The translations under genes and the position numbers were made by a program. Below are positions 1,810 to 20,624 of a stretch of DNA of 22,794 nucleotides, piece by piece; the stretch's first letter is position 1, and every line of letters starts with the position of its first letter. The DNA comes from a virus. A model generated the notes under the pieces. That model was not told the origin of the DNA and ran no database searches. It saw only the letters and a program-made list of their open reading frames with translations. The DNA is taken from IMG/VR virus record IMGVR_UViG_3300042868_005854, positions 1 to 22,794 of that record; one strand, written 5' to 3'.

Positions 1810-2814
1810 TTATTGTTTCATTGTTTTTAAATCTGTTAACAGTTGTTGTACCTGTGTTACATTCGAAGCTGTTAATGTCGGCCCGCCCATGGGCGTTTGA
1901 AATTGTGCTTTACCGCTAGTTAGATCTACTAGTTGTTGTAATGTCTGTTCTAGCAAGTTAAATAATTTATCCATATCCATTTGCCATTTAGGCGTAACGA
2001 TATTAACGGTTTTAGCTCCGACTATAATCACTTCATCTGTAGATGAATTAAAAATCAATCGATCAGATGAAATAATAGCTTGGCCCTTCGTATATGCGTC
2101 GGGTAACTGTACGCCTACACCTATAGACCGTTGCGATGTATTAAATTTAATATTTTGATCTGTCGATAATACTATAAAACTTTTTGTAGTATTTGGATCT
2201 TCAATTACATAACGATTTGGTCCGGACTCCGGCTTATGTCCATTACTTATAATAGTAATCGGCGAATTTTGATTTCCTTGCCAGAACGGTTTAACTGTAT
2301 ACTGTGAAGTATCGCCTACAATCGTTGAACTAAAACGTATTGCTTGCCCATGACGTCCATGTAAAATAATATCGCCTTCATATGGCTGAAGTGTTTTTAC
2401 ATTTGGATTTTCACGAAAGTTTTTACCTGGAGTATAAGTATCGATATTACCTGAACGTGGCAGTGCCGAAACCGTATAAGACGTAGTATTTATCGATGAT
2501 ATTTGTTTTGGTAACGGGTTTAGATTAACATTATCTTGTATAGATATTGGCCCTAAATAAAAATAGTTATATGATTTAGTAACACTATCAGCATTACTAC
2601 CATTCATACGAAATAATAGTATATGTTCTCCAATCGCTGGCATATACGTTATATTCCAGGCTGGGCTAGCATAATATTCATTAAATGGGCCAGTTTGAGA
2701 TACTGTACGTACTTTAACCGTACCCAATGGAAAGTCACCACGTGATGTAAACCGTGATTCGACACTACGTTTAAACGCTAAATCTGTTTCGATAACTTCG
2801 GCTACTAATAACAT
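1810..2814 (-). CDS. Baseplate hub / central spike OB-fold protein, gp5-like
   Basis: 334 residues. The N-terminal third looks like an OB-fold (LGTVKVRTV, then WNITYMPAIGEHILLFRM), and around residue 145 is PYEGDIILHGRHGQAIRFSS, a segment typical of gp5-type hub proteins of T4-like phages. No lysozyme domain such as that of T4 gp5 is visible. The C-terminus (MDMDKLFNLLEQTLQQLVDL) is helical. In the virion it should sit at the hub under the tail tube. The ATG overlaps the upstream stop as TAATG. The family call rests on motif recognition, not on a search. Confidence 0.78.
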   Translation of the reverse strand: MLLVAEVIETDLAFKRSVESRFTSRGDFPLGTVKVRTVSQTGPFNEYYASPAWNITYMPAIGEHILLFRMNGSNADSVTKSYNYFYLGPISIQDNVNLNPLPKQISSINTTSYTVSALPRSGNIDTYTPGKNFRENPNVKTLQPYEGDIILHGRHGQAIRFSSTIVGDTSQYTVKPFWQGNQNSPITIISNGHKPESGPNRYVIEDPNTTKSFIVLSTDQNIKFNTSQRSIGVGVQLPDAYTKGQAIISSDRLIFNSSTDEVIIVGAKTVNIVTPKWQMDMDKLFNLLEQTLQQLVDLTSGKAQFQTPMGGPTLTASNVTQVQQLLTDLKTMKQ

Positions 2815-3182
2815 TATTCGCCTTGACTTTTCTGAATAGCTTTAATTTCGTCCTCAGCTTCTTGTAGCAAACGAGAACGTTCTTCATCAGATAAAATAAA
2901 CTCACCGCCGGCGGACTCATTTTCTTTAGCAGTAGCTGAAAGTAAACGTTGTACAACCGCAGCTAACTTAACCAATGCATCATCGTTCTTAACAGATACC
3001 TCGAGGTAATCTTTAATCATTGGAACGATAACTGCTGCATCGCCTACGTTTTTAACTAACGGTTGTAACTCTTTTATTAGCCCATCAATCTGACGTGACT
3101 TCATTTTTGAATTGTGGTAAATGTCCTTCATTAGGTCAGAGAAGGAAGTACCTTTGAATAACTCAAATTCAGTAGATGCCAT
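2814..3182 (-). CDS. Conserved phage protein downstream of late sigma (unknown function)
   Basis: 122 residues, strongly helical. It begins MASTEFELFKGTSFSDLMKD and continues with a conserved-looking IDGLIKELQPLVKNVGDAAV block, then an acidic C-terminal helix (residues about 95-122). It resembles proteins I associate with T4-like marine phages but I cannot name a function. It starts a new unit after the sigma gene: the leader carries an octamer promoter candidate inside an 11-bp inverted repeat whose arm includes the ribosome-binding site. Its stop overlaps the hub start, so whatever controls this start probably controls the hub gene too. Confidence 0.8.
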   Translation of the reverse strand: MASTEFELFKGTSFSDLMKDIYHNSKMKSRQIDGLIKELQPLVKNVGDAAVIVPMIKDYLEVSVKNDDALVKLAAVVQRLLSATAKENESAGGEFILSDEERSRLLQEAEDEIKAIQKSQGE

Positions 3183-3218
3183 TTATAGCCCTTTTATTAA
3201 TAAATATAGGGCTATAAA
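3182..3218 (-). promoter_or_regulatory. Leader hairpin enclosing a promoter-like octamer
   Basis: Perfect 11-bp inverted repeat (TTTATAGCCCT at 3182-3192, AGGGCTATAAA at 3208-3218) with a 15-base loop. The loop holds ATATTTAT (3200-3207) and the palindrome TTTATTAATAAA. On the RNA, the downstream arm contains AGGG of the ribosome-binding site and ends at the first base of the start codon. RNA started within the loop would lack the upstream arm. Confidence 0.7.
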
Positions 3219-3219
3219 C

Positions 3220-3981
3220 TTATTGGTGTAGACGTCCTGACTTTTGATATGACATATACATCTTATCAAAGTCTTTGCGCATTACATTTAATACGCGCGT
3301 GATATTTTGTGTTTTGAGTCCCGTACGTTCTCGTATAAGAATATAAATAGACTTCTTATTAAAGTTTTCTATGTTCTCACGTATACGGAATATTTCTAGT
3401 ATCGTATCGGCTATTAGAATATCACGTTTGTTTGAAAATATCATTTCCATATTAGTATCATACCAGTCTACCCACTGATTTACGAAATCCCTTAGGCCTT
3501 CTTGATATGATGATATTGATAATTCTAATGTTAAGTCTCGATCGTCGTCAATAACCGTTGTTTCTACACGACGTTTTAGTTTAGCATAGTTAGCATTGTT
3601 CTGTATAATTAAGTAGTTCTTAACTATACGGCTAAAGTAACTATAGGCTTTACCTTTACCTTGCGTATACTTATGAATTTTTTCATTAAGAAACGCTACT
3701 ACTTCACACTTAACATCTTCATATGGTACATCAAAATAACTAAATTTGAATGTATGATAGATATTTTCAACTAGTTTATTAAAGGCATAATCAATATGCT
3801 CTTTATAGATTCGATTACGTTTAGTTGTATCCGTTTCTATATTATAGGCTACAATAGCCTTTTCGGTAGTGGCCGTAAAGTACATGTTAGTAGCTTTACG
3901 ACCTCTTTTACCTTTTCTTTCTAATGCTTCTTCTGCTTCTTGTTTTGCTAAATCTGCATAAAACTGTTCAACTGGGGACAT
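3220..3981 (-). CDS. 55: Late-transcription sigma factor, gp55-like
   Basis: 253 residues. The central part matches the T4 gp55 group: RNRIYKEHIDYAFNKLVENI (55-74), an acidic FDVPYEDVKCEV block, and GKAYSYFSRIVKNYLI (about 110-125), which corresponds to the sigma region-2 core and -10 recognition part. The C-terminus is helical and could contact RNA polymerase. Such proteins direct host RNA polymerase to late promoters, usually with a sliding clamp; no clamp or gp33 gene is in this window. An AAAGG ribosome-binding site lies about 10 bases before the ATG. The gene is followed by the first octamer-controlled unit, so it is a natural reader of the ATATTTAT motif. Confidence 0.85.
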   Translation of the reverse strand: MSPVEQFYADLAKQEAEEALERKGKRGRKATNMYFTATTEKAIVAYNIETDTTKRNRIYKEHIDYAFNKLVENIYHTFKFSYFDVPYEDVKCEVVAFLNEKIHKYTQGKGKAYSYFSRIVKNYLIIQNNANYAKLKRRVETTVIDDDRDLTLELSISSYQEGLRDFVNQWVDWYDTNMEMIFSNKRDILIADTILEIFRIRENIENFNKKSIYILIRERTGLKTQNITRVLNVMRKDFDKMYMSYQKSGRLHQ

Positions 3982-7504: not shown

Positions 7505-8544
7505 GATAATAACTCCTCTTTTGTATAAATATTGCGATATTCTAAAAGAGCTAATTCCTTAGCCTTTGCCTCGACCATAATATCTAAATCATAGCCGTAT
7601 GTATTGATAGGTAACTTGATGTAGTCAGCATGTGCTGTAATCTTGATCTTGTCAAACTCTTTCTTGTACTTGGCTAAGGTAGGCCATGTAGCTAACTCTT
7701 CGATCGTAATGTTATTGCGATCACACATGCCTTGTAGCATGGTCTGATACTCGGTACGACGGGACTCGCTATAATGACAAGCTTGACGTATATGTGAAGG
7801 CCAAGTACTACGTGCTAACTCTAATGCCTGCTGTTCGGTCAAATGACCAGGATTGAGCGAATGGTGAAAATAATCGAATGTAATCGGAATGCCGATATCA
7901 GTATGTACAAAGTCATATAACATCTGTACCGTATACATGCTAGGCTTGTCGTCATTCTCTACAACCAAACGTGCCTTGCAACTATCGGATAGCCTATGCC
8001 AATTACGTTTCCATACCTGCACAGTAGCTTCAGGATTGCCGTAAGCAGCGCCGATATGAATATTGACCTTGTTGTTATATGACGGCTCGAAGCCCATAAG
8101 GTCAAATAATTCGGATTGACGTTCGAGACTTGTAATAGTCTTGTCAACAACAGCTGCATGAGGCGAACCTAAAATATGAAATGGGCCGGGATGACACGAA
8201 AGGCGATGTCCATACGCTCGAGCATAGTCACCAGCTTCGAGCAACTTAGCCTTGATATGCTCTGCCTGGGGCAACTCGTGTGTCTCAAAATGATCGTGCC
8301 ACGGAATGAGATCTGAACCGATTCGGAATAGACGTATGTCATTCTCTTCGTTCCATTTGAGAATATGTAAAAGGTCGCTAGCGTTTTGTAAAGCTAACTC
8401 ACCAATCTTAGCTAAGTCTCGGGTGTTATACCAAGAACCTTTCTTAATGCCTCGGGACGTCGTAATACGACCACCGAGTTTTTTCGGTCGATTGCCTAGT
8501 GTCTGGTTGATACAGGCATAACCTAACCGTGTGTTATTGTTCAT
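7501..8544 (-). CDS. uvsE: UV damage endonuclease UvsE (UVDE)
   Basis: 347 residues, full length for the family. It starts with RLGYACINQTL as UVDE proteins do and carries the TIM-barrel metal-site motifs in order: FRIGSDLIP (73-81), CHPG (117-120), NIHIG (161-165), VVENDD (194-199, E196), FDYFHHSLNPG (223-233) and HYSES (257-261). The enzyme nicks DNA 5' of UV photoproducts, starting an excision repair route independent of UvrABC. For a phage it would repair its genome or delay host DNA loss in sunlight. It is the first gene of a transcription unit, preceded by one copy of the six-member promoter family and by a TATAAATA sequence. Confidence 0.93.
   Translation of the reverse strand: MNNNTRLGYACINQTLGNRPKKLGGRITTSRGIKKGSWYNTRDLAKIGELALQNASDLLHILKWNEENDIRLFRIGSDLIPWHDHFETHELPQAEHIKAKLLEAGDYARAYGHRLSCHPGPFHILGSPHAAVVDKTITSLERQSELFDLMGFEPSYNNKVNIHIGAAYGNPEATVQVWKRNWHRLSDSCKARLVVENDDKPSMYTVQMLYDFVHTDIGIPITFDYFHHSLNPGHLTEQQALELARSTWPSHIRQACHYSESRRTEYQTMLQGMCDRNNITIEELATWPTLAKYKKEFDKIKITAHADYIKLPINTYGYDLDIMVEAKAKELALLEYRNIYTKEELLS
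7525..7532 (-). promoter_or_regulatory. Putative late promoter octamer ATATTTAT (inside uvsE end)
   Basis: Lies 20 bases before the ATG of the 56-aa gene. It falls in codons for ...NIYTK near the UvsE C-terminus, so it could be there by coding chance. A 7-bp inverted repeat CTCTTTT/AAAAGAG brackets it, overlapping the AGAGGAG site; this is weak evidence for a hairpin. Confidence 0.4.
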
Positions 8545-15248: not shown

Positions 15249-15360
15249 AATTGATATACAATAAGTTATATAAAATAGTAGAAAACTCATTGAAAACCAA
15301 TGAGTTATAACTAATTGATATACAATATGTTATAAACCACTAATTTTCAATGAGTTATAA
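15249..15360. repeat. AT-rich repeat region: two direct-repeat pairs and a hairpin
   Basis: A 22-base repeat (AATTGATATACAATAAGTTA and two more bases) at 15249-15270 recurs at 15313-15334 with one mismatch. CAATGAGTTATAA occurs at 15298-15310 and 15348-15360. A 9-bp perfect hairpin AACTCATTG-AAAAC-CAATGAGTT lies at 15284-15306. The stretch 15181-15459 has no gene on either strand. Candidate roles are a replication origin, a regulator-binding array or a transcript boundary. Confidence 0.6.
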
Positions 15361-15664: not shown

Positions 15665-15919
15665 TTACAGCTCATGATAACCAACATTAGCTTGTGTAAT
15701 GTAGTTATAACTCTGTGAAATATGGTCCTGTATCCAGCCCGGCAGATTCTTTTCCATCGAACCGACTTTCTTAGAAAGTTCGATAGCTTGTTTAGCAATT
15801 TGTAACAATTGCTGTTGTGCCATCTTTACCTCATGATCTTCGCCAGGCATGCCTTCTGATAACGCAAAACGCGATTCGCGTGGAATGCCGGCTAACCGTT
15901 GTAAACGTTCTGGATACAT
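15665..15919 (-). CDS. Conserved helical phage protein (84 aa), hairpin-controlled start
   Basis: Begins MYPERLQRLAGIPRESRF and has a C-terminal block KNLPGWIQDHISQSYNYIT that I recognise from small proteins of T4-like marine phages, sometimes attached to virion proteins. It is all-helical; a structural or assembly role is likely, as inference. A CGGAG site lies before the ATG. The start codon and first five codons form one arm of an 18-bp perfect inverted repeat (15904-15978), with a promoter-like octamer in the loop. Confidence 0.8.
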   Translation of the reverse strand: MYPERLQRLAGIPRESRFALSEGMPGEDHEVKMAQQQLLQIAKQAIELSKKVGSMEKNLPGWIQDHISQSYNYITQANVGYHEL

Positions 15920-15978
15920 ATGATCTCCGTTTTATTTATAAATATACGAAGCTTTACTTAATATGTATCCAGAACGTT
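15904..15978 (-). promoter_or_regulatory. 18-bp inverted repeat hiding a start codon, octamer in the loop
   Basis: AACGTTCTGGATACATAT at 15904-15921 is exactly inverted at 15961-15978. The 39-base loop holds ATATTTAT (15938-15945), an overlapping TATAAATA and the CGGAG ribosome-binding site. On the RNA, the downstream arm contains the ATG at 15919. Upstream RNA should fold and block the start; RNA begun at the octamer cannot form this hairpin. Confidence 0.8.
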
Positions 15979-20598: not shown

Positions 20599-20616
20599 AT
20601 GCCCTTTTATTTATTA

Positions 20617-20624
20617 ATAAATAT
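20617..20624 (-). promoter_or_regulatory. Putative late promoter octamer ATATTTAT (before acetyltransferase)
   Basis: Lies 18 bases before the ATG at 20598, within the 16-base palindrome TATTTATTAATAAATA. A second palindrome ACTATATAGT is at 20633-20642. CATAT at the front can pair with ATATG at the start codon (5 bp), too short to claim a hairpin. Confidence 0.6.

Follow-up and report, generated by a model that had tools for sequence, protein, structure and literature searches.

A probable translational lock with its promoter inside the hairpin, as in T4 gene e, between a sigma-like gene and a baseplate block in an environmental phage lineage

In the T4 genes e, soc, 49 and I-TevI, long early RNA folds so that a helix encloses the Shine-Dalgarno sequence and/or the AUG, and transcripts from the late promoters do not include the 5' portion of that helix (PMC3014915, PMC2988022). 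For T4, lysozyme synthesis is described there as lowered ~100-fold (PMC3014915). Together with mobE of phage Aeh1, these genes are the closest known systems to the one presented here (PMC3014915, PMC2988022). In the open-access literature, promoter-in-hairpin leaders were found for the T4 cases only, and the junction analysed here was not found in print.

When recomputed, T4 e showed a 37-base intergenic stretch with a hairpin of -14.9 kcal/mol and the promoter inside the hairpin; the gaps of T4 e, soc and 49 are 37, 32 and 41 bases, respectively. The DNA stretch studied here, which we call the window, is a complete IMG/VR viral record of 22,794 bases, and nearly all its plausible genes are carried by the minus strand. 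A hairpin in the window likewise occupies a gap of 37 bases, between the genes at 3981-3220 and 3182-2814, and folds at -16.2 kcal/mol. The two loci have several features in common: a late gene directly follows a gene of the early region (a timing that is proposed for the window), the ribosome-binding site and start lie in the stem, and the late promoter (a predicted one in the window) is placed so that its RNA omits the 5' arm.

An inverted-repeat scan of the window confirmed the geometry given in a sequence-only reading of the same DNA, namely an 11-bp perfect repeat with an octamer-bearing loop of 15 bases, in which the downstream arm overlaps the ribosome-binding site and reaches the start codon. 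Arms 3218-3208 and 3192-3182 form 11 uninterrupted base pairs; the downstream arm contains AGGG, and its final base is the A that opens the ATG at 3182 (Table 1). The TAA stop of the upstream gene is located 1 base before the 5' arm. The RNA fold has a z of -4.18, and 0 of 200 shuffles folded as well. No other perfect inverted repeat in the window combines arms of 11 bp or longer and a 3-20-base loop, against a chance expectation of 0.13 such stems on average and 2 at most (30 first-order Markov simulations). The computed cost of opening the ribosome-binding site and AUG in the window is 16.1 for a long RNA versus 3.8 for a short one. An Rfam scan of the window gave 0 matches at the gathering score.

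Table 1 Features of the junction and of the second hairpin in the window
Feature	Positions	Strand	Sequence and basis
Upstream gene, probable late sigma factor, 253 aa	3220..3981	-	Helical model, PDB matches, weak gp55 profile match
5' arm	3208..3218	-	TTTATAGCCCT; complementary to the ribosome-binding site; complementarity kept in relatives
ATATTTAT, probable late promoter element	3200..3207	-	In the loop; strand bias; TATTTAT in 64 of 64 unique relatives
Loop, 15 bases	3193..3207	-	ATATTTATTAATAAA; holds ATATTTAT (3207-3200) and TTTATTAATAAA (3204-3193)
3' arm	3182..3192	-	AGGGCTATAAA; contains the ribosome-binding site AGGG (3192-3189)
Controlled gene, 122 aa, function unknown	2814..3182	-	First gene of the block leading to baseplate genes; conserved in relatives
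Second hairpin, same architecture	15904..15978	-	18-bp perfect arms, octamer in the loop; gene 15665-15919

The best explanation of this arrangement is, in our estimate with a probability of about 0.75, a promoter-in-hairpin translational lock of the type described for T4 genes e, soc, 49 and I-TevI. Read-through RNA from the sigma-like gene, which we infer to be made before late time and to be repressed, would fold the stem at approximately -16 kcal/mol and thereby bury the ribosome-binding site and the beginning of the AUG of gene 2814-3182. At late time, RNA polymerase would initiate from the late promoter, with its ATATTTAT element in the loop, and the resulting RNA, beginning near 3194, would retain the 3' arm only, carry a leader of ~12 bases and be freely translated. 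By its position, ATATTTAT would leave its RNA without the 5' arm. In T4 late promoters, RNA starts 6 bases after the promoter octamer; by analogy, the late RNA of gene 2814-3182 is predicted to start near 3194, inside the loop, which gives the 12-base leader with only the 3' arm. The sigma-like and controlled genes lie on the same strand with a short gap between them, and no terminator is called at 3182-3220.

The distribution of ATATTTAT, whose counterpart in T4 is TATAAATA, makes it very probable that this element serves as the lineage's late promoter. In the window, 10 copies lie on the minus strand, which bears the genes, against a single copy on the plus strand. The pattern ATATTTATN{0,12}AAAGG was present in 14 of 14 related contigs (65 matches listed), always on one strand per contig, and the reversed-pattern control gave 1 match over all 14 contigs. 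The genes with ATATTTAT-AAAGG upstream include the portal protein gene and the gene of a giant protein that neighbours SbcC. At the relatives' junctions described below, TATTTAT precedes the start by 12-19 bases in 64 of 64 unique sequences. Earlier transcription of the sigma-like gene, suggested in the sequence-only reading, is a logical supposition. A late-type octamer also exists at 7532, upstream of the block of the sigma-like gene, and could feed long late RNA into gene 2814-3182.

The late-type promoter of gene 20598 carries the palindromic TATTTATTAATAAATA at 20608-20623, with a 14-base stretch identical to the loop at 3207; this site has no flanking arms, and its opening cost is 4.7 versus 2.8. 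A leader repeated upstream of 15180, 17325 and 19418 joins a T-rich stretch to CTAGGATT or TTAGGATT and to TTATTATTAAGT, a short way ahead of the start codons; these leaders may be early promoters.

To what extent is the hairpin retained in related genomes? Relatives were found with both flanking proteins, and after loci with a start less than 60 bases from the locus end were dropped, 156 loci with 64 unique junction sequences were kept. In most of the 64, the arms can pair with the ribosome-binding site, and their sequences vary between relatives: TAATCCTT/AAGGATTA, GCCCCTT/AAGGGGC, GTCCTT/AAGGAC, ATAGCCCTT/AAGGGCTAT, AGAGC/GCTCT and others. A convincing stem is missing in, for example, loci L041, L092, L079, L093, L094, L122, L137, L062, L073, L075 and L158. 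The hairpin is a real, conserved element.

The complementarity of the arms was compared with that obtained after exchanging arms between genomes. In an initial test on the 64 sequences, the stem score was 15.17 versus 13.02 with swapped arms. Swapping of the 3' arms among 49 non-redundant junctions gave 12.12 (sd 0.39) against 14.39 observed, a value reached by 0 of 20000 swaps; the corresponding numbers were 0 of 20000 for 28 representatives (below 90% protein identity), 1 of 20000 for 17 (below 85%) and 217 of 20000 for 7 (below 80%). Single-linkage thinning to 6 representatives gave a non-significant result (1497 of 20000), and greedy thinning replaced single linkage, a choice made after that result was seen. 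When the register was set on the core AAGG only, the outer three positions were paired in 71% of cases versus 58% after permutation (0 of 5000). Covariation in fixed columns was weak, with paired cells at 66.1% versus 64.1% in shuffles (45 of 500); double changes amounted to 45 versus 31.6 (7 of 500), and pair types were not above shuffles (332 of 500). We attribute the weakness to the stem register, which slides 1-2 bases between sequences, and swapped-arm tests were therefore used instead of fixed columns. The fixed-column test and the failed test with 6 representatives are the main results against a claim of strong covariation. In the covariance check across related phages, suggested together with the sequence-only reading, the arms pair beyond swapped-arm controls, and the signal in fixed columns is weak.

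Megablast of the window against 50,697 phage records returned no DNA match. Proteins related to the 253-aa protein, with 40-42% identity, occur in Microcystis phage Mel-JY01, the Flavobacterium phages immuto and an uncultured phage; no paper on Mel-JY01 or immuto was found in the open-access literature. The homologous junction of immuto (L164:6694-6726) possesses the octamer, but neither AAGG nor a hairpin. The host of immuto is perhaps not reliant on Shine-Dalgarno pairing, and if so, the absence of both might be expected. In Mel-JY01, an octamer-like stretch overlaps the start and the junction has no hairpin; in LR756508, no such junction was seen. These three give no support for conservation beyond the lineage.

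Another important question is whether the hairpin belongs to this gene or accompanies the octamer wherever it occurs. The gene at window position 1547 and its relatives provide a comparison within the same phages: the octamer is the same and the hairpin is absent, with a stem score of 7.7 (56 sites) versus 15.3 at gene 2814-3182 and its relatives (66 sites). The mean cost of opening the region from the ribosome-binding site to the AUG was 8.6 kcal/mol on read-through RNA versus 2.1 kcal/mol on late RNA for the controlled gene (n = 85 unique sites), and 4.0 versus 2.5 kcal/mol for the 1547 gene (n = 74 sites). Late RNA was taken here to start 6 bases after the octamer, and the set omits sites located less than 70 bases from the locus start as well as those without an ATG 13-39 bases from the octamer start that opens an ORF of 45 codons. 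A read-through/late difference of at least 4 kcal/mol was found at 85% of the 85 sites versus 14% of 225 other octamer sites, some of which lie inside coding sequence (e.g., the groups starting MNKSPVDLFYEWH and MDKIINWFLLL), so that the 1547 gene is the cleaner control. A strong stem is missing in approximately one-sixth of the relatives (13 of 85 sites under 4 kcal/mol).

The difference persisted after thinning, at 85% identity for the controlled gene and 75% for the control gene, thresholds that are unequal because the protein of the former is more conserved. Representatives with a difference of at least 4 kcal/mol numbered 14 of 17 versus 5 of 43 in the control (Mann-Whitney p = 4e-7), and those above shuffled upstream sequence at p 0.05 numbered 10 of 17 versus 1 of 43; the remaining 7 of the 17 were not individually above shuffles, and 3 of the 17 fell under 4 kcal/mol. 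Relative to the late promoter of the 1547 gene, the hairpin is specific to gene 2814-3182 and its relatives. The computed evidence at the junction comprises the hairpin, its conservation, the complementarity of its arms and the lack of a hairpin at another late promoter in these phages. The core idea of the sequence-only reading, in which the ribosome-binding site is occluded on read-through RNA and a promoter in the loop gives RNA without the 5' arm, gains comparative support, since all relatives compared carry the motif, the arms pair better than swapped ones and the other late promoter has no hairpin.

Could the same arrangement serve translational coupling? The hairpin would then block independent initiation, ribosomes finishing the sigma-like gene would open it, and the yield of the next gene from the long RNA would scale with that of the sigma-like protein. 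At 36 of 84 sites, the stop codon of the sigma-like gene overlaps the 5' arm; at 47 of 84, the distance is 0-12 bases. A terminating ribosome could thus open the arm in 83 of 84 sites, a count that includes weak stems. However, coupling needs no promoter motif in the loop, and the motif is universal in the relatives. Compact spacing is moreover usual in these genomes, several other junctions of which have a stop codon a few bases from the octamer. The gaps of T4 e, soc and 49 are equally short, and T4 e is nevertheless reported to be reduced ~100-fold (PMC3014915); because this repression occurs despite a similar gap, we rate coupling lower and regard it as unlikely. It is improbable to a greater degree that the CCTT run preceding the octamer extends the promoter, its complementarity to AAGG being incidental and without function in RNA. 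CTT directly before the octamer is indeed common at the controlled gene (T 0.85 at -2, T 0.67 at -1), and the core CCTT/AAGG pairing is family-wide, which explains why much pairing is also seen with swapped arms. Nevertheless, the pyrimidine run, present at the controlled gene, is absent at the 74 sites of the 1547 gene and at 120 others, and pairing outside the core tracks the arm of the same genome.

The sequence-only reading also allowed the hairpin to be a terminator of the sigma transcript, and a stable stem directly after the upstream stop codon would suit a rho-independent terminator. This proposal fails in several respects: the U-run is absent after the stem, where AUAAAUGGC is found instead; a terminator scan calls none on the minus strand at this place; and the position of the stem shifts along with the ribosome-binding site, overlapping the region of the start codon. 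We consider termination very improbable, and we give even less credence to an element acting at the DNA level, such as a cruciform or a protein-binding palindrome over the promoter. The inverted repeat is centred on the promoter motif, but the arm sequences vary widely among relatives, and in the outer stem, G-U pairs (18) exceed A-C mismatches (5), against swapped-arm nulls of 23.8 and 11.8. This excess is modest evidence and leans towards sense RNA as the level at which the pairing may act.

The gene preceding the hairpin probably encodes a sigma factor. The model of its 253-aa protein is all-helical (pLDDT 76, pTM 0.49), and its PDB matches are mostly sigma factors; the superposition on region 2 of sigma-E reached 2.3 Å over 91 residues with a Z of 8.2, which can be generic for helical proteins. 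Alignment by hhalign with a profile of nine gp55 proteins was collinear over 68 columns in the region-2-like part (E 0.0022, probability 12.8%), and T4 gp55 alone gave an E of 0.051. A Foldseek search with the model returned no match at E 0.001 or better, the protein had no Pfam or PHROG match of its own, PHROG 234 included, and a PDB sequence search gave chance matches only. It also differs from T4 gp55 in length (253 versus 185 aa) and in an extra C-terminal helical part. The label of late sigma given to this gene from the sequence alone is weakened to that of a probable sigma factor. Of the hub and wedge genes named at the same time for the downstream block, the wedge subunit is supported (526-1068), and the hub (1810-2814) has no family match.

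The same design had been read at 15904, where the AUG and the first codons of gene 15919-15665 lie within the 3' arm. The architecture is indeed shared, and the 18-bp arms there (15904-15921 and 15961-15978) differ from those at 3182, in agreement with the statement that the arm sequences are unrelated. Among the relatives of gene 15919 (80 loci, 75 scored), the octamer was present in 0 of 75 and no inverted repeat longer than 7 bases was found at the start; therefore, nothing comparative supports this second hairpin. In an intergenic gap at 15284-15356, we also observed a long imperfect palindrome with 34-base arms that are 79% complementary and separated by 5 bases.

Related structures were seen at the giant gene (1947 aa, L345:5773-14799, no PHROG match), which directly follows a gene for an SbcC-like recombination nuclease. 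For its family, which includes L357-L408, 52 loci were fetched, 45 of which have an octamer site (35 unique). Several loci have complementary arms that differ in sequence, such as TTCACCTA or TCACTTG with AGGTGA, TATTCCTG with AGGAATG, and TATTCTTG with CAGGAATA; other giant-gene loci showed no complementary arms. In T4, the nucleases 46/47 are made before late time, and by this timing, both hairpin families mark places at which a gene probably needed earlier is followed by a late one. As a hypothesis, we propose a junction rule for promoter-in-hairpin locks: in this lineage, they would be fixed where a late gene follows an earlier-needed one, after the sigma-like gene in nearly all members and, in some of them, between the SbcC-like gene and the giant gene. 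We hold this rule tentatively, at slightly below even odds. If true, it would create a self-gated step at the sigma junction, in which initiation of the RNA that releases the next gene from its lock requires the product of the sigma-like gene.

The mechanism itself is already known from T4; what would be new is its lineage, outside the T4 family, and the fixed junction of a sigma-like and a late gene. The gene under control differs as well: in place of lysozyme, soc, 49 or a homing endonuclease, it is one that heads a baseplate block beside the phage's sigma-like gene. Unlike the T4 cases, the hairpin of the window is kept across a whole lineage with changing arms. If the preferred reading of a promoter-in-hairpin lock is correct, the T4 lysozyme-type lock would not be limited to T4 lysis and homing genes and would be kept, with arms changing, at one junction across an environmental phage lineage with a different late promoter. 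The order of a pyrimidine arm, ATATTTAT, AAAGG and an AUG within ~45 bases may provide a sequence rule for early-to-late boundaries in uncultured phages. The natural variants with and without the stem would form a set for testing how strong a lock is required, and they also bear on whether the lock works despite ribosomes terminating just upstream.
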